Assembly (NCBI GenBank): GCA_021850345.1
Contig: JAJZMN010000028.1
Coordinates: 1 to 13,310 of the forward strand
Source of the DNA: Actinomycetes bacterium
GTDB taxonomy: Bacteria > Actinomycetota > Acidimicrobiia > Acidimicrobiales > RAAP-2
Direction of reading: 5' to 3'
Length of the DNA: 13,310 bases
This document shows, piece by piece, positions 3,944-13,310 of this stretch (position 1 is its first letter; every line of letters starts with the position of its first letter). The notes under the pieces were generated by a model. It saw nothing but the letters and a program-made list of their open reading frames with translations, searched no databases and was not told the DNA's origin. The position numbers and the translations under genes were made by a program.

Positions 3944-4948
3944 ATGTCACGTGACCTCGCGATCGATCTCGGCACGGCCAACACGCTCGTGTACGCGAAG
4001 GGCAGGGGCATCGTGCTCAACGAGCCGACGGTCATCGCGATGGACACGCGCTCCAAGGGCGTGCTCGCGATCGGGGACGAGGCGTGGCAGATGATCGGCA
4101 GGACCCCCGGCTACATCGTGGCCGTGCGGCCGATGCGCCAGGGCGCGATCACCGACTTCGACATCACCCAACGGATGCTCCACGTGCTCCTGCGACGGGT
4201 CGGGGTCGGCCGGCTCAGCCGTCCCAAGGTGCTCGTGTGCGTGCCGTCGGCGATCACCGCGGTGGAGCGCCGGGCGGTGATCGAAGCGACCCGCAGCGCG
4301 GGCGCGTCCGAGTGCTTCCTCATCGAGCAGCCGATCGCCGCGGCGATCGGTGCGGGACTCTCGATCCACGAACCGGTCGGGTCGATGATCGTCGACGTGG
4401 GCGGCGGCACGTCGGAGACGGCCGTCATCTCGCTCGGCGGCATCGTCGCGATGCGCGCCATCCGGTGCGGCGGCTTCGATCTGGACGCGGCGATCCAGTC
4501 GTACGTGCGGACGAACTTCGGCGTCGCGATCGGCGAGCGCACCGCCGAAGCGGTGAAGCTCGCGATCGGGTCCGCCGAGCCGTTCCCGGACGAACCCGAC
4601 GCGGAGGTGCGCGGCCGGGAAGTGGCCACGGGGATGCCGCGCACGGTCGCCCTGAGCTCCGCCGAGGTGCGGTCCGCCGTCGCGGACCAGGTCACCCAGA
4701 TCCTCGACGCGGCGACGAACTGCCTCGGCGAGGCGCCGCCAGAGCTGGCCCAGGACATCATCTTCCAGGGGATCCACCTGACCGGCGGCGGGGCGTTGCT
4801 CCGCGGGCTCGGCGAGCGGCTCTCGGAGGTGACCGGTGTGCCCGTGCACCTCGTCGAGGCACCCCTCGAGTCCGTGGTGCTCGGGGCAGGGCGCTGCATC
4901 GAGTCGTTCGACCGCCTGAAGCCGCTCTTCAGCGCGGCGGAGCGCTGA
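3944..4948 (+). CDS. mreB: Rod-shape actin homologue MreB
   Basis: This is a bacterial actin of 334 residues, the usual family length. It polymerises under the membrane and guides lateral cell-wall synthesis. Visible nucleotide-binding motifs are phosphate 1 DLGTANTLVY (8-17), phosphate 2 VDVGGGTSETAV (150-161), the ECFLIEQPIAAAIGAG segment (123-138) and the adenosine motif LTGGGALLRG (279-288). The protein begins almost directly with the first strand (MSRDLAIDLG). It therefore lacks the N-terminal amphipathic helix of enterobacterial MreB and would need the hydrophobic loop to reach the membrane. It has no mreC or mreD next to it: upstream is a divergent PDZ protein and downstream a convergent HEAT gene. 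It may thus be an Mbl-like or sole MreB paralogue. The promoter immediately upstream suggests independent expression. Family assignment is secure. Confidence 0.95.
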   Translation: MSRDLAIDLGTANTLVYAKGRGIVLNEPTVIAMDTRSKGVLAIGDEAWQMIGRTPGYIVAVRPMRQGAITDFDITQRMLHVLLRRVGVGRLSRPKVLVCVPSAITAVERRAVIEATRSAGASECFLIEQPIAAAIGAGLSIHEPVGSMIVDVGGGTSETAVISLGGIVAMRAIRCGGFDLDAAIQSYVRTNFGVAIGERTAEAVKLAIGSAEPFPDEPDAEVRGREVATGMPRTVALSSAEVRSAVADQVTQILDAATNCLGEAPPELAQDIIFQGIHLTGGGALLRGLGERLSEVTGVPVHLVEAPLESVVLGAGRCIESFDRLKPLFSAAER

Positions 4949-4955
4949 AGGCCGG

Positions 4956-4973
4956 GCCGGCCGTCAGGCCGGC
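4956..4973. terminator. GC hairpin between convergent mreB and HEAT gene
   Basis: GCCGGCC (4956-4962) and GGCCGGC (4967-4973) pair perfectly over seven G/C pairs around a GTCA loop. The loop includes the stop codon of the HEAT gene, and mreB ends eight bases before the stem. There is no T tract on either side, so this would be an actinobacterial-type bidirectional terminator rather than a classical one. Confidence 0.45.
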
Positions 4974-5596
4974 GCGTCGTCGCCGACGTCGAGCAGGATC
5001 TCGGCGACTTCGCGCACCTGCCAGTCGCGGTCGTCCGCGCTCCGACGGAGCGCCGCGCGCACCTCGTCGCCGTCGAACGCGGCGAGCGCCACCACGGCAC
5101 GGCGGCGCACGGTCGGCCGGTCGTGGAGGGCGTCGAGCACCGCGGGCAATCCCTCGGGGTCCCCGATGCCGCCGATGGCCGCGACCGCGGCTTCCCTCGC
5201 CCGCGCGTCCGGGTGCTCGCGCGCGGTCCGCACCAGCTCCGGGACAGGGGACGACGACGACTCGCCGAGCGCCCAGCAGGCCGCCTCGACCACCAGCGCG
5301 TCGGGGTCGCCGAGCGCCTCCCGCAGCGCCGAGAGGAGCGAGCCGGACGGCTGCAAGGTCCCTGCGAGGTCGCACGCGCGCCGCCGGACGCCGGGATCGG
5401 GGTCGTCGCGCAGCACCCGTTCGACGGTGCGAGGCCCGAGATGCCCCGAGCGCGCGAGGGCGCCGAGCGCCACCTCCCGGAGCCGCGGGTCCTCCGAAGC
5501 CAGGGCTCGCCTGGCGGTCTCGGCGTCGCCGCGGTGCCCGGCGACCACCACGTCGACCAGGCGGAGCGTGCCAGGCGTGGCAGGATCGTCCCCCAC
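4964..5596 (-). CDS. HEAT-repeat protein
   Basis: This 210-residue all-helical protein is built from about five to six HEAT (PBS-lyase-type) repeats. Recurrent helix pairs are visible at 24-50 (DAETARRALASEDPRLREVALGAL region), 56-80, 85-110, 117-142, 147-172 and 176-204, with D-P turns (DDPDPGVRRRA, GDPDALVVEAA, GDPEGLPAVL). Such repeats form curved scaffolds that bind protein partners; no catalytic motif is present. The GTG at 5596 is chosen because the repeats begin soon after it and because the open frame upstream enters the divergent protease gene. A weak CATACT box sits 6 bases before it. Its start is only nine bases from the divergent YlbL-like ATG, and its stop lies close to that of mreB. 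The partner is unknown; adjacency to MreB or the protease is the only clue. Confidence 0.8.
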   Translation of the reverse strand: MGDDPATPGTLRLVDVVVAGHRGDAETARRALASEDPRLREVALGALARSGHLGPRTVERVLRDDPDPGVRRRACDLAGTLQPSGSLLSALREALGDPDALVVEAACWALGESSSSPVPELVRTAREHPDARAREAAVAAIGGIGDPEGLPAVLDALHDRPTVRRRAVVALAAFDGDEVRAALRRSADDRDWQVREVAEILLDVGDDAPA

Positions 5597-5605
5597 CGAC
5601 CGAGT

Positions 5606-6838
5606 ATGTCCGAGCCCGACCTCAGCCGCACGGCACCGTCCCCCGTCCCCCGGCCCCAGCTCCCCCCGCCTTCGGGCACCGAGCCCGCGGGCGCTGAGCC
5701 CCCGGGAGGAGCACCTCGCCGCCGCCGGGTCCTTCGGTGGCGCCACGCCGCGGTGCTCTTCGTGCTCGTGCTCGTCGTCGCCGGCGTGGTCGCCGACCAC
5801 GTCGACCTCAACTACTACGTGCTCACCCCGGGCGTCGCGCAGCCGGTCGCCCCGCTGGTGACGGTTCCCAAGGCCCGCGCCCACCGGCTCCACGGCAGCG
5901 TCTTTCTCACCGACGTCTACCTCACACGGGTGACCGCGCTGAGCTACCTCTACGACAAGCTTCGGGGCGACGCGCAGGTGCTGCCGTCGGCCGAGGTGCT
6001 CGGCCCCGCGACGCCGCCCTCTCAGCTCGTTGCGCAGGGATATCTCGAAATGGAGCAGTCCCAGTCCGCGGCGAAGGCCGCCGCGCTGACCCGCCTGGGC
6101 TACCACGTGGGCGCGCACCCCACCGGCGTGGTCGTCTTCGCGGTCGTGCCGCGCTCGCCGGCGTCAAAGGTGCTGTCGGTGGGCCAGATCCTCACCGCGG
6201 TGGACGGCCACAAGACGCTGGGCGCGTGCTCCTTCGCCCGGGCGCTGGCGGCACACCGCGCGGGGCAGGAGGTGACGCTGGCGGTGGAGCGCTCGCACGT
6301 GAACTCCCGCGCCCAGCTGGTGCCCGGGCCGAGCGCGCGGGAACGCGTACGGCTCGGATCCTGGCCCACGTCGGTGCCGCACCCCGCGGCCACACCGAGC
6401 TGCCCCGGCACGGGCTGGCACGGGCAGGGGTTCCTCGGCGTCGAGGCGCAGACGCAACTGGCGTTCCGCTTTCCCTTCCCGGTGACGTTGCGCACCACAT
6501 CGATCGGCGGCCCCTCGGCGGGGCTCGCGATGACCCTCGGGCTCGTCGACACGCTCTGGAACGGCCGGCTCACGGGCGGAAGGAAGATCGCGGCCACCGG
6601 CACCATCTCGCCTACAGGGGCGGTCGGCGCGGTCGGCGGCGTCCCCGAGAAGACCGTGGCGGTGGAGCGGGCGGGCGTAACGGTGTTCTTCGTGCCCGCC
6701 ACACAGGTCGCGACAGCCAGGTCGAAGGCGACGTCGTCCCTCGAGGTCTACGGGGTCCGCTCGCTCACGCAGGTGCTCGCGGATCTCCGCCGCCTCGGGG
6801 GCTCCGTGCCGCCGACTCCGGCATCCCGCGGGTCGTAG
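5606..6838 (+). CDS. YlbL-like membrane protease with PDZ and Lon-type catalytic domain
   Basis: This 410-residue serine protease carries a proline-rich cytoplasmic head (1-45), one membrane anchor (48-64, AAVLFVLVLVVAGVVAD region) and an external body. The body has a PDZ domain (about 165-230, GVVVFAVVPRSPASKVLSVGQ region) followed by a Lon-type S16 domain. The Ser-Lys dyad is visible: S304 in GGPSAGLAMTL and K349 in GVPEKTVAV. GxIxxTGxVGAVGG, typical of these proteases, lies at 332-345. B. subtilis YlbL and M. tuberculosis Rv3194c are the nearest characterised types; these proteases act on membrane or secreted substrates. The ATG at 5606 is chosen because the frame upstream has the composition of the antisense HEAT gene. 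There is no ribosome site. The DivIVA-like gene follows after 10 bases. Unlike the nearby HtrA-like protein, this protease appears catalytically intact. Confidence 0.93.
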   Translation: MSEPDLSRTAPSPVPRPQLPPPSGTEPAGAEPPGGAPRRRRVLRWRHAAVLFVLVLVVAGVVADHVDLNYYVLTPGVAQPVAPLVTVPKARAHRLHGSVFLTDVYLTRVTALSYLYDKLRGDAQVLPSAEVLGPATPPSQLVAQGYLEMEQSQSAAKAAALTRLGYHVGAHPTGVVVFAVVPRSPASKVLSVGQILTAVDGHKTLGACSFARALAAHRAGQEVTLAVERSHVNSRAQLVPGPSARERVRLGSWPTSVPHPAATPSCPGTGWHGQGFLGVEAQTQLAFRFPFPVTLRTTSIGGPSAGLAMTLGLVDTLWNGRLTGGRKIAATGTISPTGAVGAVGGVPEKTVAVERAGVTVFFVPATQVATARSKATSSLEVYGVRSLTQVLADLRRLGGSVPPTPASRGS

Positions 6839-6848: not shown

Positions 6849-8804
6849 GTGGCTGACCACAATCCGTCCATCCCGACCCCGCACCTCGACGCGAGCGAGG
6901 TCGCGCGGCACTCGTTCGGGACCGTCCGGCGCGGCTTCGACCCCGAGGAGGTGCGTGCCTACCTCGCGGCACTCGCCGAGGCGCTCGACCGCTCGGCTCG
7001 CCGCGAGCAGGAGCTCGTCGGCCAGCTGCACGACGCCGAGGAGCGTGCGCGACATCCGGTGATCGACGAGAGCGTGCTCACGTCCTCGCTCGGCCAACGC
7101 AGCGCCGCGGTCCTTCGCGGGGCGCACGAGGAAGCGGCACGGATCCTCTCGCAAGCCGAGGAGACGGCGGCGGCAACGGTCCGCGACGCCCAGCAGCAGG
7201 CGACCGACATTCAGGTGAACGCCGAATCGTCCGCCGCCGAGCGAATCGCCGAGGCGGAGCTCGAAGCCAACTCGCTTCGCCAGCAGGCGCACGAGGAAGC
7301 GGCAGCAGTCGTGGAGACCGCGCGTCTCGAGGGCGAGGCCGTGGTCGAGCGAGCGCGCGAGCACGGGAGGGCCATGCTCGACCAGGCCCAAGAGGCGCGT
7401 CGACGGGTGCTCGCCGACATGGCGCATCGGCGCCGGCTGATCACCGAGCAGATCGAGCTGTTCCGTGCCGCGCGAGACGAGATCGCGGGCTCGGTCGTGG
7501 GGGTCCGGCGGTCCCTCGACCGGATCGTCGACGACCTCTCGCATGCCGAGGACTCGGCGCGGGCCGCGGCCTCGGCCGCTTCGAAGCCCCACGGAGTTGA
7601 GGTGCCCGAGCCGGTCCTCGTGGAAGAAGGCGAGCGTGCCGTCGCGGCCCTCGAGGAGTCCGACCGTGGAGAGGAGCTCGCCGCTGCGCACGCGCCCGTG
7701 GATGTGTCGCCATCCCATGAGCCCCGCCCCGTGTTGCGCTTCGACGACATCGCGAGCGTCGTCGAACGACCCGAGCCCGGTCTTCCCGGCCCCTCGGGCG
7801 AGGATCTGCCGGGTTCGAACGGCGTGACGGCGGACGTCAAGCCCCGCGAGGCCGTCGTCCACGATTGGCAGGACGACCCCGAGCTGGCCCCTGCATCGGA
7901 TCCAGCGGCGGGGGGATCCGATGTCGACGGGCTCTTCGCGCGCCTGCGCGCCCGCCACGCCGTCGCCGACGCGGCGCCGGCTGCCGAGGACGCGGCGCCG
8001 GCTGCCGAGGACGCGGACGGCGACGGGGTCGAGGCGGCCGGGAGGGTCGTGGAGACCGGCAAGGACGAGGCCGAGCGTCCGGCCGTGCTCGACGAGGTCG
8101 CAGACGACACCGAGGCCGCGGACGGGCCCGAGGTGGACGGCTCTCCCGACGCCGCGATGTTCGAGCGCCGTGCAGAAGCCCTGGACCCGATCACGACCAC
8201 CCTGGCGCGTCGGCTGAAGCGGGCCCTCCAGGACGACCAGAATGGGCTGCTCGATCGTCTCCGGCAGGGTACGGGCGAGTGGTCGGATGACCTGTTGCTC
8301 GACGAGGCCACCCAGCGCGAGCTGTACGCGAAGGCGGCCACGGTGTCGGTGCGCGACGCCATGGCGGCGGGGGCGAGCTTTGCCCGATCGATTGTCGGCG
8401 GCCGCCGGACCAAGTCGACGTCCGCCGCGGACGAGCAGGGCGTCGACGAGGTGAGCAGCGAGCTCGCGTCGACCATCGTGACCTTGATCCGACGCCGCCT
8501 CGAGGGGGGCGACATCCCGGACGCGGCCGAGCGTATCGGTGCCGCGTACCGCGAGTGGCGCGGAGAGCGGATCGAGCGCCTGGCCGAGGACTCGGCCGTG
8601 CACGCCTTCTCGAAGGGCGTGCTCGCGGGGTCGGGTAAGCGCAGCGTGCGTTGGAGCCGGAGCGACGTGGGCCCGGGCTGCGCGGATTGCGAGGACAACG
8701 GCCTCGCCGGGACCGTTGCACCCGGAGAGGAGTTCCCGACCGGCCACCGCCATCCGCCGGCGCACGCAGGCTGCAGATGTCTCGTCCTGCCGACCCCAAG
8801 TTGA
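6849..8804 (+). CDS. DivIVA-domain coiled-coil protein with phage Mu gpF-like C-terminal domain
   Basis: This 651-residue protein has four visible parts. Residues 15-47 match the DivIVA N-terminal domain (FGTVRRGFDPEEVRAYLAAL), which senses curved membrane and recruits growth or division proteins. Residues about 50-245 form a long Ala/Glu/Arg-rich coiled coil. Residues 246-440 are an acidic, probably disordered linker with a duplicated DAAPAAE block. Residues about 445-651 are a separate folded domain whose end (RIERLAEDSAVHAFSKGVL, then C611-x2-C614, then FPTGHRHPPAHAGCRC with H639, C642, C644) closely resembles phage Mu gpF-like minor head proteins, including the ending PPxHxxCRC. The cysteines and histidines could bind zinc. 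There is no signal or membrane segment. The GTG at 6849 is supported by the TAGTCT box and the start of DivIVA homology. Domain calls are by eye; the function of the fusion is unknown. Confidence 0.88.
   Translation: MADHNPSIPTPHLDASEVARHSFGTVRRGFDPEEVRAYLAALAEALDRSARREQELVGQLHDAEERARHPVIDESVLTSSLGQRSAAVLRGAHEEAARILSQAEETAAATVRDAQQQATDIQVNAESSAAERIAEAELEANSLRQQAHEEAAAVVETARLEGEAVVERAREHGRAMLDQAQEARRRVLADMAHRRRLITEQIELFRAARDEIAGSVVGVRRSLDRIVDDLSHAEDSARAAASAASKPHGVEVPEPVLVEEGERAVAALEESDRGEELAAAHAPVDVSPSHEPRPVLRFDDIASVVERPEPGLPGPSGEDLPGSNGVTADVKPREAVVHDWQDDPELAPASDPAAGGSDVDGLFARLRARHAVADAAPAAEDAAPAAEDADGDGVEAAGRVVETGKDEAERPAVLDEVADDTEAADGPEVDGSPDAAMFERRAEALDPITTTLARRLKRALQDDQNGLLDRLRQGTGEWSDDLLLDEATQRELYAKAATVSVRDAMAAGASFARSIVGGRRTKSTSAADEQGVDEVSSELASTIVTLIRRRLEGGDIPDAAERIGAAYREWRGERIERLAEDSAVHAFSKGVLAGSGKRSVRWSRSDVGPGCADCEDNGLAGTVAPGEEFPTGHRHPPAHAGCRCLVLPTPS
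7968..8009 (+). repeat. In-frame 21-bp tandem duplication in the DivIVA-MuF linker
   Basis: Two perfect copies of a 21-base unit (7968-7988 and 7989-8009) encode DAAPAAE twice. A truncated third start (GACGCGGAC) follows. The duplication lengthens the disordered acidic linker without breaking the frame. Confidence 0.9.
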
Positions 8805-8831: not shown

Positions 8832-11800
8832 GTGCGAACCCCGCCTGATGTTCCCTCGCGTGTGGCGAAGCCGCGTTCCGGCCATGCGCGCTGGTGGGTC
8901 ATCGGCGGCGTTCTGGTCCTGATCGTCGTGCTCGGCTCCCTCCGGTCGCTCGCCGGCCTCTACACCGACAGCCTCTGGTTCTCCTCGGTGGGTTTCCACC
9001 CGGTGTGGTCCACGCTGCTCGCAGTGAAGATCGGGCTCTTCGCGAGCTTCGGAGCCGCCTTCTTCGTCGTCCTGTGGCTGAACCTCGTCGTATGCGACCG
9101 TCTCGCGGCGCATGGGCCGGCCGTCGACCCCGACGACGACGTGGTCCGGCGGTACCAGCACGCGGTTCGGCCGTACGCGGGGCGCGTGTACGCCGCGTTG
9201 GCACTCGCGGTGGCGCTGATCGCCGCGGCCACCACCGTGGGGCAGTGGAACAACTGGCTGCTCTTCACCCACGCCCAGTCGTTCCCCTATGCCGATCCCC
9301 AGTTCGGCGTGAACGACAGCTTCTTCGTCTTCCGTCTGCCGTTCCTCCAGTTCCTCGTCGACTGGGTGCTCGCAACGCTTGTCGTGGTCGTCCTCTTCAC
9401 CACGCTCTTCCACTACCTGAACGGCGGCATCCGGCCTCGCGGGACCCCGAGGGTGCGGCCAGTGGTGAAGGTCCACCTGTCGGTGCTCCTCGCACTGATC
9501 GCACTCGTGAAGGCTGGGGGCTACGAGCTGTCCCGCTACGCACTCGACCTCTCGACGAACGGCTACGTGGAGGGTGCCGGGTACACGGACGTCCACGCCC
9601 GGCTCCCCGCCCTCGAACTCCTGTTCTTCGTATCGTTGTTCGCCGCAGCGATCCTGCTCTACAACATCCGCCGTCAGGGCTGGACGCTGCCTGTGCTCGC
9701 GGTCGGCGTGTGGGGCTTCGTCGCGCTCGTGATCGGGGTCATCTACCCGGCGGTCCTCCAGGCGTTGAAGGTCAACCCCGCGCAGAGCACGCTCGAGAGC
9801 AAGTACATCGCCCGCAACATCGCGGCCACGCGCTACGCGTACGGGATCGACCACGTGAAGGTGGTGTCGAGCTATCCGGATAGGACAGTGGTGCCGAGCG
9901 CCACAATCGACGCGTCCCTGACAACCCTCAACAACATCCGGCTGTGGGATCCCAGCACACAGATCTCGCTAGCGGACTTCCGGACCAAGCAGGCGATCAG
10001 CAGCTACTACACCTTTCAGACCACCCAGGTGGAACGGTACGCCACACACACGCATGGGACGATCCGACCGGACATCGTCGGTGTCCGCCAGATCGATCCA
10101 ACAAATCTTCCCTCGTTGAGCTGGGTGAATCTTCACCTCCAGTACACCCACGGAGAAGGCCTGGTGCTCGCCGAGGCAAACCGGGCCACCGCGAAGGGCA
10201 ATCCGGTCTTCGCGATCAGCGACGTCCCGGCGAAGTCAGCCCACGGGTTCCCCAAGCTGAAGCAGCCAGCCATCTACTTCGGCGTCAAGCAGCCCGGCTA
10301 CGTGGTGGCGGACTCGAAGCAGCCCGAGCTGAACGGCCAGCGGCCGACAGGCACCGACGTCGAGGCTCACTACCGCGGATCCGGAGGCGTCCGCCTCGGT
10401 TCCTTCGTCACGCGTGCCGCCTTCGCGCTGCGGCTCGGCGACCTCAACCTCCTGCTCTCCAACCTCGTCACGCCGCAATCGAAGATCATGTTCATCCGCG
10501 ACGTGCACACAATGGCGGAGAAGGCCGCGCCGTTCCTGAGCTTCGACTCGCAGCCGTACCCCGTGCTCTCCAATGGCCACGTCGACTGGGTCCTCAACGC
10601 GTACACGACGTCCGCCAACTTCCCGTACTCCCAGAACGCCGACACCCAGACCCTTCCGTCCACCTCCGGGCTGCCGTCGAGCTACAACTACGTGCGCAAC
10701 TCGGTTATCGTGGTCGTGAACGCGTACAGCGGCAAGATGACGTTCTACGCGATGGACCACGACCCGATTCTCCGGGCGTACGAGGCGGCGTTTCCCAAGT
10801 TGTTCACCCCGGCTCGCACAATGCCGCCCTCGATCCGATCGCAGCTGCGATACGGCAACGACCTCTTCGCGGCGCAGGCGGCGATCTACGGTCGCTACCA
10901 CATCACCCGCCCCGCGCAGTTCTACACGGCAGGGGACGCATGGCTCGTCTCACCGACGACGGGAGTCGGCTCGCCGACACAGGCACTCAGCTTCCGCTAC
11001 GTGACGAACCAGCAGGGTCAGATCGTCGGGGGCTCCTACCAGCCGATGACACCCGTGTACCAGGTGGAGTCTCTGCCCGGCCAAACGACACAGTCGCTCA
11101 CCGTCACCGATGCGTACGTCCCGGCCGGCTCGTCGGCGGCCGGTGACAGCCAGCTGCTACGTGCGCTGCTCGTCGGTGACTCCGGTCCGGGGCATTTCGG
11201 CCAGCTCCACGTGTACGAGACGCCACCGGGCACGAGCAAGGTCGGCCCGATCTTCGCGGACAACGAGATCGAGACGACACCCACAGTGTCGAGCAAGATC
11301 ACGCTGCTCAACAAGGAGGGTTCGCGTGTCGTGCTCGGCAACATTCTGCCGGTGATCGTCGGACAGTCCGTCATCTATGTCCGGCCGCTCTACGTCGAGT
11401 CGAAGACCGTCCCGCAACCTCAGCTCAAGTTCGTCATCGCGGTGCTCGGCCAGCGGGTGCAAATGGGACCGACAACCGGCGCAACGCTCAACGCCCTGCT
11501 CGGGACCACCCTCAAGCGCACAGGAGGGATCCTCACCACAACACCCAACGCGCCGACGGTCGCTCCCCAGCCGCAGGGCAAGTCCTCGTCGTCGGCGATC
11601 GAGAAAGCCCGGTCGCTGCTCGCGCAAGCCGCGGCCGACTTCGCCGCCGCTCAGGCCGACCTGAAGTCCGGTGACCTCGGCGGCTACCAAAGCGAGATCG
11701 CCGCCGCGCAGTCTGCGACGGCCCAGGCCGACGCGATCCTCGGTGGGGGGTCGGCCTCGTCAAAGAAGACGAACGGTGGGACCTCCAAGGTCCCGTCGTC

Positions 11801-11858
11801 GTCGAGTGCTTCCGCGACGACGACGAGCGCACTGTCCCCGCGGCGCGGCAGCTCCTGA
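8832..11858 (+). CDS. UPF0182 family large membrane protein
   Basis: This 1008-residue protein belongs to UPF0182, a widespread actinobacterial family (Rv3193c type) without a settled function. Seven hydrophobic segments are visible at about 21-41, 62-87, 116-137, 168-193, 211-230, 258-278 and 284-307. They include the family block LYTDSLWFSSVGFHPVWST (43-61) and the QSFPYADPQFGVND region (149-162). A large domain, about 310-910, follows and probably faces outward (NPAQSTLESKYIARNI, then FAISDVP, IYFGV, YRGSGGVRLGSF). The C-terminus has an Ala-rich helix (about 916-970, SSAIEKARSLLAQAAADFAA region) and a Ser/Thr-rich tail. Length and topology match the family. The GTG at 8832 is supported by the TAGGCT box and by the basic stretch before the first membrane segment. 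It lies downstream of the DivIVA-MuF gene, in the same order protease-to-UPF0182 as I recall from mycobacteria. Confidence 0.95.
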   Translation: MRTPPDVPSRVAKPRSGHARWWVIGGVLVLIVVLGSLRSLAGLYTDSLWFSSVGFHPVWSTLLAVKIGLFASFGAAFFVVLWLNLVVCDRLAAHGPAVDPDDDVVRRYQHAVRPYAGRVYAALALAVALIAAATTVGQWNNWLLFTHAQSFPYADPQFGVNDSFFVFRLPFLQFLVDWVLATLVVVVLFTTLFHYLNGGIRPRGTPRVRPVVKVHLSVLLALIALVKAGGYELSRYALDLSTNGYVEGAGYTDVHARLPALELLFFVSLFAAAILLYNIRRQGWTLPVLAVGVWGFVALVIGVIYPAVLQALKVNPAQSTLESKYIARNIAATRYAYGIDHVKVVSSYPDRTVVPSATIDASLTTLNNIRLWDPSTQISLADFRTKQAISSYYTFQTTQVERYATHTHGTIRPDIVGVRQIDPTNLPSLSWVNLHLQYTHGEGLVLAEANRATAKGNPVFAISDVPAKSAHGFPKLKQPAIYFGVKQPGYVVADSKQPELNGQRPTGTDVEAHYRGSGGVRLGSFVTRAAFALRLGDLNLLLSNLVTPQSKIMFIRDVHTMAEKAAPFLSFDSQPYPVLSNGHVDWVLNAYTTSANFPYSQNADTQTLPSTSGLPSSYNYVRNSVIVVVNAYSGKMTFYAMDHDPILRAYEAAFPKLFTPARTMPPSIRSQLRYGNDLFAAQAAIYGRYHITRPAQFYTAGDAWLVSPTTGVGSPTQALSFRYVTNQQGQIVGGSYQPMTPVYQVESLPGQTTQSLTVTDAYVPAGSSAAGDSQLLRALLVGDSGPGHFGQLHVYETPPGTSKVGPIFADNEIETTPTVSSKITLLNKEGSRVVLGNILPVIVGQSVIYVRPLYVESKTVPQPQLKFVIAVLGQRVQMGPTTGATLNALLGTTLKRTGGILTTTPNAPTVAPQPQGKSSSSAIEKARSLLAQAAADFAAAQADLKSGDLGGYQSEIAAAQSATAQADAILGGGSASSKKTNGGTSKVPSSSSASATTTSALSPRRGSS

Positions 11859-12306: not shown

Positions 12307-12383
<77 letters not shown>

Positions 12384-12398
12384 GCGAAAGTGCAGCTC

Positions 12399-12431
12399 AG
12401 GGCCGGTCTCCAGGGACCGGCCCTTCTGCTG
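12399..12431 (+). terminator. Intrinsic terminator of tRNA-fMet
   Basis: AGGGCCGGTC (12399-12408) and GACCGGCCCT (12415-12424) form a perfect 10-bp stem with a 6-base TCCAGG loop. A modest T-rich stretch, TTCTGCTG, follows. It begins 16 bases after the tRNA CCA end, a usual position for tRNA termination, and would insulate the integrase from tRNA transcription. Confidence 0.75.
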
Positions 12432-12442
12432 TCTGGAGTTCC

Positions 12443-12472
12443 ATCCCACGAGTCATCCCACGAATCCCACGA
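12443..12472 (+). repeat. Three direct copies of ATCCCACGA upstream of the integrase
   Basis: ATCCCACGA occurs at 12443-12451, 12455-12463 and 12464-12472. The first two copies are 12 bases apart start to start, and the last two are directly abutting. They lie between the tRNA end and the integrase start, where arm-type integrase or excisionase sites are expected. The tRNA T arm also contains ATCCCAC (12366-12372). Confidence 0.7.
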
Positions 12473-12481
12473 GTGCAGGTC

Positions 12482-12487
12482 TACGAT
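12482..12487 (+). promoter_or_regulatory. Putative -10 box of the integrase gene
   Basis: TACGAT fits TANNNT and ends seven bases before the GTG at 12495, consistent with a leaderless transcript. The ATCCCACGA repeats cover the -35 region, so protein bound there would control integrase expression. Confidence 0.4.
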
Positions 12488-12494
12488 CCCCTTC

Positions 12495-13310
12495 GTGAGA
12501 GGGTCGAAGCGGCGGTTGCCGAGTGGAGCCTGGGAGCTCAGGGTCTCCCTTGGCCGGGATCCGGTAAGCGGCGGGTACCGGCGACTCTCGAAGACCTTCC
12601 ACGGCACGGCCCGCCAGGCCGACGAAGCCCTTCGAGAGCTGATCGGCCGGCAGGCGCCGGATGCCACCGGCGCCGGCGCCACGCTCGGGCAGCTCCTCGA
12701 CGAGTGGTTGGCGGAGGGGGAGCGGCTCGACCTCTCGCCGACGACGCTACGCACGTACCGGGCCCAGATCGACCGCACGATCCGGCCAAGGCTCGGCAAG
12801 GTGCCGCTCGTTTCGCTCACCTCCAAGCACTTGGACGACCTGTACCGAAGTCTGAAGGCTGCCGGGCTGTCGCCCAAGACGATCCGGAACTACCACGCCA
12901 TCCTCTCAGCCGCTCTTCATCAGGCCGTCCGGTGGGGATGGATCGGGACCAACGTCGGAGAGCGGGCGAAGCCGCCGCGGATCTCGCAGCGCAGGGTCGA
13001 GGCACCCACGACCGAGACGGTGCGGGCAGTTATCGAAGAGGCGGAGAGTCGAGACCCCCGACAGGCGCCGCTCCTCATGCTCGCCGCACTGACTGGCATG
13101 CGCCGAGGCGAGCTGTGCGCGCTGCGGTGGTCTGACGTCGACCTCGAGCGCGGAGTGATCGAGGTCTCACGATCGGTTGCCGTCGTCCCGGGTGGGATCC
13201 TCGAGAAGGGGACCAAGACTCACCAGGCACGCCGTGTCGCCCTCGACCCAGTGGGTGTTGCGCTGCTCATCCAGCACGGGACGCGCATCGCCTCGTGGGC
13301 GAACAAAGTC
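12495..13310 (+). CDS. Site-specific tyrosine integrase, 3' end outside window
   Basis: The first 272 residues of a phage- or ICE-type tyrosine recombinase that joins the element to the tRNA-fMet site. Residues 1-50 form the AP2-like arm-binding domain (WELRVSLGRDPVSGGYRRLSKTF region; FHGTARQADEAL). Residues 62-155 form the SAM-like core-binding domain (LSPTTLRTYRAQI, LSPKTIRNYHAILSAAL), and the catalytic domain begins near 170. Catalytic R203 is visible in ALTGMRRGEL, and the beta-hairpin lysine is probably K241 in GTKTHQARRVAL. The HxxR and Tyr motifs lie beyond the window. The GTG at 12495 is chosen because VRGSKRR leads directly into the arm-binding fold and a TACGAT box precedes it. The frame is open with no defect to the window end. 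Length to come is probably about 100-130 residues. Confidence 0.93.
   Translation, partial: MRGSKRRLPSGAWELRVSLGRDPVSGGYRRLSKTFHGTARQADEALRELIGRQAPDATGAGATLGQLLDEWLAEGERLDLSPTTLRTYRAQIDRTIRPRLGKVPLVSLTSKHLDDLYRSLKAAGLSPKTIRNYHAILSAALHQAVRWGWIGTNVGERAKPPRISQRRVEAPTTETVRAVIEEAESRDPRQAPLLMLAALTGMRRGELCALRWSDVDLERGVIEVSRSVAVVPGGILEKGTKTHQARRVALDPVGVALLIQHGTRIASWANKV

Follow-up and report, generated by a model that had tools for sequence, protein, structure and literature searches.

A DivIVA-type protein ending in a phage MuF-related domain, encoded next to UPF0182 in Acidimicrobiia

The window, that is, the whole stretch of 13,310 nucleotides that was analysed, contains a single open reading frame that runs from a GTG at 6849 to a stop at 8804 on the plus strand. 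Its start is collinear with those of its closest homologues, and the frame, Pfam matches and a protein search mark it as the gene for a 651-residue fusion of DivIVA with a MuF-like domain. Upstream lie conserved neighbours encoding an MreB/Mbl-like protein (3944..4948, plus strand) and a HEAT-repeat protein (4964..5620, minus strand, start approximate), followed by a YlbL-type membrane protease with PDZ and Lon_C domains (5606..6838, plus strand, start approximate). Downstream is a UPF0182 membrane protein gene (8832..11858, plus strand), the most constant neighbour, whose longest frame begins 27 bases past the fusion gene. The ylbL, divIVA-muF and UPF0182 genes probably form an operon. The initial annotation had placed the gene in a non-phage cluster, and this held: none of the seven neighbours tested had a phage match, six belonging to non-phage families and one to no family, and the genes around the fusion are those for MreB, HEAT, YlbL and UPF0182 instead of a portal gene. 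Beyond UPF0182, a tRNA-Met gene (12307-12383) is followed directly by an integrase frame that extends from 12390 to the window end (13310) and matches PF00589 and PF14659 over their cut-offs, so that a mobile element, separate from the fusion gene, probably begins within 12307-13310.

The N-terminal part of the protein is a DivIVA domain (residues 15-68, 6891..7052, plus strand, from PF05103, TIGR03544 and the helices of the structure model). PF05103 matched residues 16-127 (E=6e-13, 49.3 bits against a cut-off of 28) and TIGR03544, DivI1A, scored 27.4 against 22; the Wag31 equivalog NF050102, with 23.6 against a cut-off of 260, did not recognise the protein. The motif FGTVRRGFDPEEVRAYL, on which the DivIVA assignment had originally been based, occupies residues 23-39. 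A full-length AlphaFold model built from 46 rows (mean pLDDT 76) has the DivIVA start, a helix at 32-68, and then a single helix at 74-241 that corresponds to the long coiled coil already proposed from the sequence (7068..7571, plus strand), part of which is covered by the PF05103 match ending at residue 127. The following linker (residues 242-432, 7572..8144, plus strand) is largely of low confidence in the model and poorly conserved, the mean top-residue frequency among 46 aligned relatives being 0.24-0.28 compared with 0.65-0.75 for the DivIVA part, the coil, the MuF helices and the tail. Within the linker, alignment and model pick out a short conserved helix, LFARLR (residues 359-374, 7923..7970, plus strand), with a mean frequency of 0.54 and five invariant residues within 355-375 across the 46 rows. 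Because a similar motif is retained in proteins that have no DivIVA part, this helix may be a docking motif in its own right. Confident structure resumes at about residue 434 with the MuF-like domain (residues 436-651, 8154..8801, plus strand), which AlphaFold, BFVD, PHROG and hhalign comparisons delimit as four helices plus a Cys/His tail. The initial annotation had recognised the MuF-type end, and PHROG matches, fold, profile alignment and tail residues bear out that relationship; its bound of about 70 residues was too tight, the folded domain (~434-651) comprising about 216.

How close the C-terminal domain stands to the MuF family as Pfam defines it depends on the sequence used. On the fusion protein alone PF04233 gave 11.4 bits for the whole sequence and 15.0 for the C-terminal part, under the cut-off of 29.6, and this single-sequence score would not carry a MuF assignment by itself; of the two Pfam matches that the initial annotation had proposed to check, only the DivIVA one was over its cut-off. 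Among 54 relatives, 25 matched PF04233 at E≤0.1 (best 1.6e-5), and the best score among the relatives scanned, 28.7 for P0165, was likewise under the cut-off; the protein database gives a precomputed PF04233 for P0165 and for P0164. A phage relative, from Brevundimonas phage Strzyga, also fell short (26.9), while Arthrobacter phage Wheelbite (45.8) and the locus L168 (62.5) passed. As the scores lie under the gathering level, the domain is better described from its sequence as MuF-related than as a Pfam member. Stronger matches came from the PHROG profiles: 52 of the 54 relatives matched phrog_2662, annotated as portal, at E≤0.001 (best 1.2e-15), and the C-terminal 216 residues of the fusion protein align to positions 475-707 of its 717. 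The match of the Strzyga portal to phrog_2662 runs along its length (E=1.2e-105), and the portal ends in PF04233, which identifies phrog_2662, at the level of sequence, as a family of portal-MuF fusions. Searching phages with tblastn returned 21 records at E≤10, with Strzyga best (2e-5) and Arthrobacter and Methanoculleus viruses next (E from 6e-3 up); 12 of the 14 Arthrobacter phage records are annotated as capsid or head maturation protease or MuF-like minor capsid protein, and two as hypothetical.

Comparisons of predicted fold and of profiles point the same way. Modelled alone, the domain reached pLDDT 95 and pTM 0.91, and Foldseek against BFVD, a comparison of predicted with predicted structures, gave 77 matches at E≤0.001, with E down to 1.3e-6 and a query TM of 0.67. 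Among the 50 of these matches listed, 32 were named, 29 of them as head, minor capsid, portal or MuF proteins; the other three were one zeta-toxin-domain protein and two uncharacterised proteins. Sequence and fold searches of the PDB gave no significant match (fold E≤0.001), the top rows being designed bundles and other helical proteins. With a 68-row family profile, hhalign gave probabilities of 98.2 to Strzyga and 96.9 to Wheelbite gp17, two sequences originally found by similarity, and the E-values are those of single comparisons. Against a set of seven of the nine phage MuF sequences (L258 and L260 left out) the probability was 89.9 with the 68-row profile and 69.6 with a 54-row profile; controls gave 0.1 to the DivIVA half and ≤0.5 in ten column shuffles. 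The match of the C-terminal part to phage MuF, which the initial annotation had proposed to look for by profile comparison, was thus found, and it covers about half of the domain. In the reverse direction, the family profile recovered four of seven phage or prophage MuF loci at E≤1e-5 (L091, L092, L104 and L168), L091 and L092 having themselves been found by similarity; L105 appeared only at 5.7e-4, and L103, which scores 77 bits in Pfam, and L110 were missed. These misses suggest kinship to one branch of the diverse MuF family. Taken on sequence and predicted fold, the C-terminal domain is homologous to phage MuF. A BTAD match in the same part was weak (18.7 bits against 22.1, in five of 54 rows) and was rejected as a chance match on a helix.

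The domain ends in the Cys/His tail (residues 611-644, 8679..8780, plus strand), C611-x2-C614 ... P636-P637-x-H639-x2-C642-x-C644, in which the motifs quoted by the initial annotation are all present. A protein search that did not rely on tail patterns yielded 427 relatives at E≤0.001; of the closest 120, which were examined, 119 bear the tail, and P0108, which does not, was dropped. Both Cys pairs, H639, F629-H633 and P636-P637 are invariant in those 119. In a wider set, all five Cys/His residues are kept in 120 of 136 usable rows and at least four in 134; the 136 are the 143 rows for distinct loci, repeat fetches of the same gene included, minus seven cut before the tail. All five are also kept in each of the four phage rows aligned. 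Conservation of these residues makes a metal site likely, and the tail is probably such a site.

Genome scans, for which the patterns were tail and helix peptides, confirmed 249 loci, of which the best 80 were kept. The tail is present in 80 of 80 (76 by pattern, four by eye), partly by construction. All but one of the 80 come from records titled as actinobacteria of some kind, the exception being titled Acidobacteriota; the named strain among them is the cultured Aciditerrimonas ferrireducens MV1 (L069), of the class Acidimicrobiia. Two records, titled Bifidobacterium breve (L068) and Acidobacteriota (L025), have MuF domains that group with the acidimicrobial ones and are probably mislabelled or mixed bins. 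At least 270 of 395 Acidimicrobiia genomes encode the MuF-like domain. This is an undercount, since G005 and G022, both scored as negative, have it ahead of UPF0182, the frame in G022 being cut by the contig start; of 20 negatives listed, from a total that includes 105 more, 13 are genomes of 0.9-1.1 Mb. Only three of the 395 class genomes have PF04233 genes over the Pfam cut-off, and a phage portal gene was found in only 20 of 385, so that most genomes of the class offer no portal for a MuF domain to bind. One prophage-type MuF gene of the same class (L104, genome G340) is a 922-residue open frame that is over the Pfam cut-off and has a large C-terminal extension, and two genomes (G118 and G200) have unusually long open frames, of 1191 and 1543 residues, containing the MuF domain. 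In a draw of 396 genomes from the phylum, 54 had the domain, 18 of them outside the class draw, including one (G544) with a phage-type MuF away from UPF0182. Twelve distant loci (L154-L164 and L169) mostly read as a DivIVA-like start, coil, linker and MuF domain ending just before UPF0182; L154 combines in one frame PF05103 at 47.4 bits with PF04233 at positions 6-111 (24.4 bits, under cut-off), and L161 matched PF05103 and not PF04233. In L156 and L158 the DivIVA start motif looks eroded and the coil and MuF domain are retained. From these sequences, inheritance of the domain is apparently vertical and old.

The gene order recurs with the gene. As the initial annotation had proposed to check, the fusion lies beside YlbL and UPF0182 genes in other actinobacteria: relatives of the neighbours were found in the 80 loci, several of them short, for UPF0182 in 79, YlbL in 74, the HEAT protein in 71, MreB in 70, a zincin in 65, an HtrA-like protein in 58 and a 91-residue protein in 25. 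A UPF0182 start, extrapolated from tblastn, lies on the same strand from -200 to +600 nucleotides downstream in 135 of the 143 locus rows, with a median gap of 30 nucleotides; seven of the remaining eight are truncated where the locus stops, and in L025 the two genes are 3.3 kb apart. YlbL is less constant. Of the ten loci in which no YlbL relative ends within 600 nucleotides upstream, four have it further off (with a broken frame in L031) and six, which are short or cut, have none. UPF0182 is present in 54 of 54 MuF-positive genomes of the phylum draw against 252 of 396 overall, a contrast inflated by shared ancestry. Conversely, none of 17 UPF0182 loci from MuF-negative genomes, hand-picked and so non-random, has MuF or DivIVA upstream, which indicates that UPF0182 does not need the scaffold everywhere; ten of the 17 have a YlbL relative close upstream, so that YlbL-UPF0182 appears to be a wider pair. 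In the present lineage, by gene order, DivIVA-MuF stands between the two.

The fusion is not the only DivIVA of its host. A PF05103 search of 14 genomes found a DivIVA frame separate from the MuF gene in 12, namely in nine of ten genomes with the fusion (all but G194) and in three of four with MuF alone (all but G080); in G018, PF05103 did not recognise the DivIVA half that belongs to the MuF gene itself. In both genomes examined closely (G002 and G007) the separate DivIVA follows ftsZ and sepF. As judged from these frames, DivIVA-MuF is an additional paralogue and not the housekeeping DivIVA. The MuF part, for its part, can occur alone: at L094, L095, L096 and L098, YlbL is followed by a short MuF protein, which begins close to an LFARIR-type helix and has no DivIVA part, and then by UPF0182. 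In the tree the four loci make up a single clade (support 99) that lies within a group of nine rows (support 100); the rest of this group are fusions or, in the case of L101, cut at the contig start. Since the clade is nested among fusions, its lineage most likely lost the DivIVA half and kept the helix and MuF domain. All four lack the second Cys of the first tail pair, and L095 was recognised by neither Pfam nor PHROGs. The tree was made by a quick method with SH-aLRT support only, has several long branches, and includes among the rows labelled as fusions some cut at contig ends, with the DivIVA half unseen. It separates the chromosomal family from the phage rows with a support of only 75, which makes a single capture of the MuF domain likely from the sequences and not proven.

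Set against known systems, the protein resembles DivIVA/Wag31 of Actinomycetota (PF05103, NF050102) in its N-terminal domain and long coiled coil, but it has about 400 further residues ending in MuF, and its gene is not at the ftsZ-sepF locus, which houses another DivIVA in the two genomes. With the phage portal-MuF proteins (phrog_2662, Strzyga) it shares the tail C-x2-C ... FPSGH ... H-x2-C-x-C, but DivIVA takes the place of the portal part and the gene is chromosomal, with non-phage neighbours. The helical domain with its Cys/His tail is likewise that of MuF minor capsid proteins (PF04233), as compared with Wheelbite gp17; SPP1 gp7 is a further protein of this kind, and Mu gpF is linked to the fusion protein only through PF04233. 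MuF polymorphic toxins also have a MuF domain in a multidomain protein, but, according to the available part of PMC5576092, they carry the toxin in a C-terminal extension behind MuF; here the MuF domain ends the protein with nothing after it, and a MuF toxin was rejected. The same part of that survey, which used HMMER with -cut_ga, assigns 90% of 901 bacterial MuF genes to prophages and 3% to putative remnants. Most of the DivIVA-MuF family, with PF04233 scores under the cut-off, would miss this level. The literature collection searched, as far as its texts were available, held no report of a DivIVA-MuF fusion and, among papers naming UPF0182, none on its function; in the accessible part of PMC9858780 the acidimicrobial DivIVA proteins fall in an actinobacterial cluster and the word 'phage' is absent from the main text, and that of PMC10457771 had nothing of use on MuF.

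Members of the DivIVA family bind curved membrane and oligomerise. In the reading to which we give about an even chance, the fusion protein is an extra and specialised paralogue of DivIVA whose MuF domain, of phage origin and domesticated, docks, most likely, UPF0182. Its DivIVA half would be expected to oligomerise on strongly curved membrane, at the poles or septum; a flexible linker would hold the MuF domain, which is expected to act as a metal-stabilised protein-docking module; and the scaffold might thereby cluster or position a UPF0182/YlbL membrane system, with YlbL as a possible further client. UPF0182 is favoured as docking partner because its link survives both loss of DivIVA and absence of YlbL. 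Gene neighbourhood is no proof of contact with UPF0182, and shared ancestry inflates the linkage. As to the part in polar growth, division or the envelope that the initial annotation had put forward as a possibility, the analysis ties the fusion only to UPF0182 and YlbL. A related and more tentative proposal, which we hold possible at somewhat under even chances, puts the emphasis on the MuF half: the C-terminal domain of a portal-MuF protein would have been captured once, anciently, and would have become a new cell part of Actinomycetota; its dock, formerly a grip on the portal ring of a phage, would now grip UPF0182, and DivIVA would carry it to curved membrane. The system would then centre on the MuF half and not on DivIVA, since the lineage that discarded DivIVA has retained MuF at its position. 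According to the available part of PMC5576092, the MuF protein gp7 of SPP1 binds the portal protein.

Other partners for the MuF half seem unlikely to us. It might mainly partner YlbL, so that the fusion brings this protease to the septum, or regulates it, as part of a division checkpoint; a YlbL relative does lie within 600 nucleotides upstream in 70 of the 80 loci, and in the window it ends 10 bases before the fusion gene, yet in the 12 distant loci tblastn with the YlbL of the window found none in the fetched flank beside the fusion while UPF0182 stays. DivIVA proteins are, moreover, cytoplasmic. The B. subtilis YlbL is, in the part of PMC6051672 available, a membrane protease with a share in removing the division inhibitor YneA, but it likely acts outside the cell. 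Docking of UPF0182 is also favoured by the linkage over an improbable role in which the MuF half is a DNA-binding part that anchors the chromosome at curved membrane. Some actinobacterial DivIVA proteins do hold the chromosome through ParB, and a DNA-binding protein targeted to the SPP1 procapsid is reportedly gp7. A reference title in the accessible part of PMC5576092 speaks of such a DNA-binding protein targeted to the procapsid by the portal; the gene linkage of the fusion, however, is to membrane proteins.

Because the domain is phage-related and nearest to portal-linked MuF, it could be imagined as a decoy or superinfection barrier, a captured head domain spoiling incoming phage heads. 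We regard this as very unlikely: no PADLOC-DB 2.0.0 family matched at E≤0.01, and the fixed position and broad, apparently vertical inheritance are unlike those of most defence genes. That the tail is an unrelated Cys/His knuckle merely resembling MuF would fit the single-sequence Pfam score under cut-off and the lack of a significant match to a solved structure, but it is highly improbable, being disfavoured by whole-domain matches in PHROGs and BFVD and by hhalign over about half of the domain. An assembly artefact or a decaying prophage remnant has next to no probability and was rejected. Chromosomal MuF genes are mostly prophage (the 90% given in the available part of PMC5576092), but many assemblies contain the fusion, among them that of cultured A. 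ferrireducens, and its tail is conserved. The initial annotation had argued against an artefact from the uninterrupted frame; the frame is indeed uninterrupted, but it is recurrence and not the frame itself that excludes one.

MuF domains are otherwise known from phage heads, of which they are parts, and from phage toxins, which they carry. A MuF family that is conserved outside phages and coupled to a cytoskeletal scaffold would clearly exemplify how a structural module of phages can become a part of the cell, and DivIVA-MuF gives a handle on UPF0182, a membrane family that 252 of the 396 genomes sampled from the phylum possess. Together, these results suggest that a viral component was recruited long ago for a task at the cell envelope.
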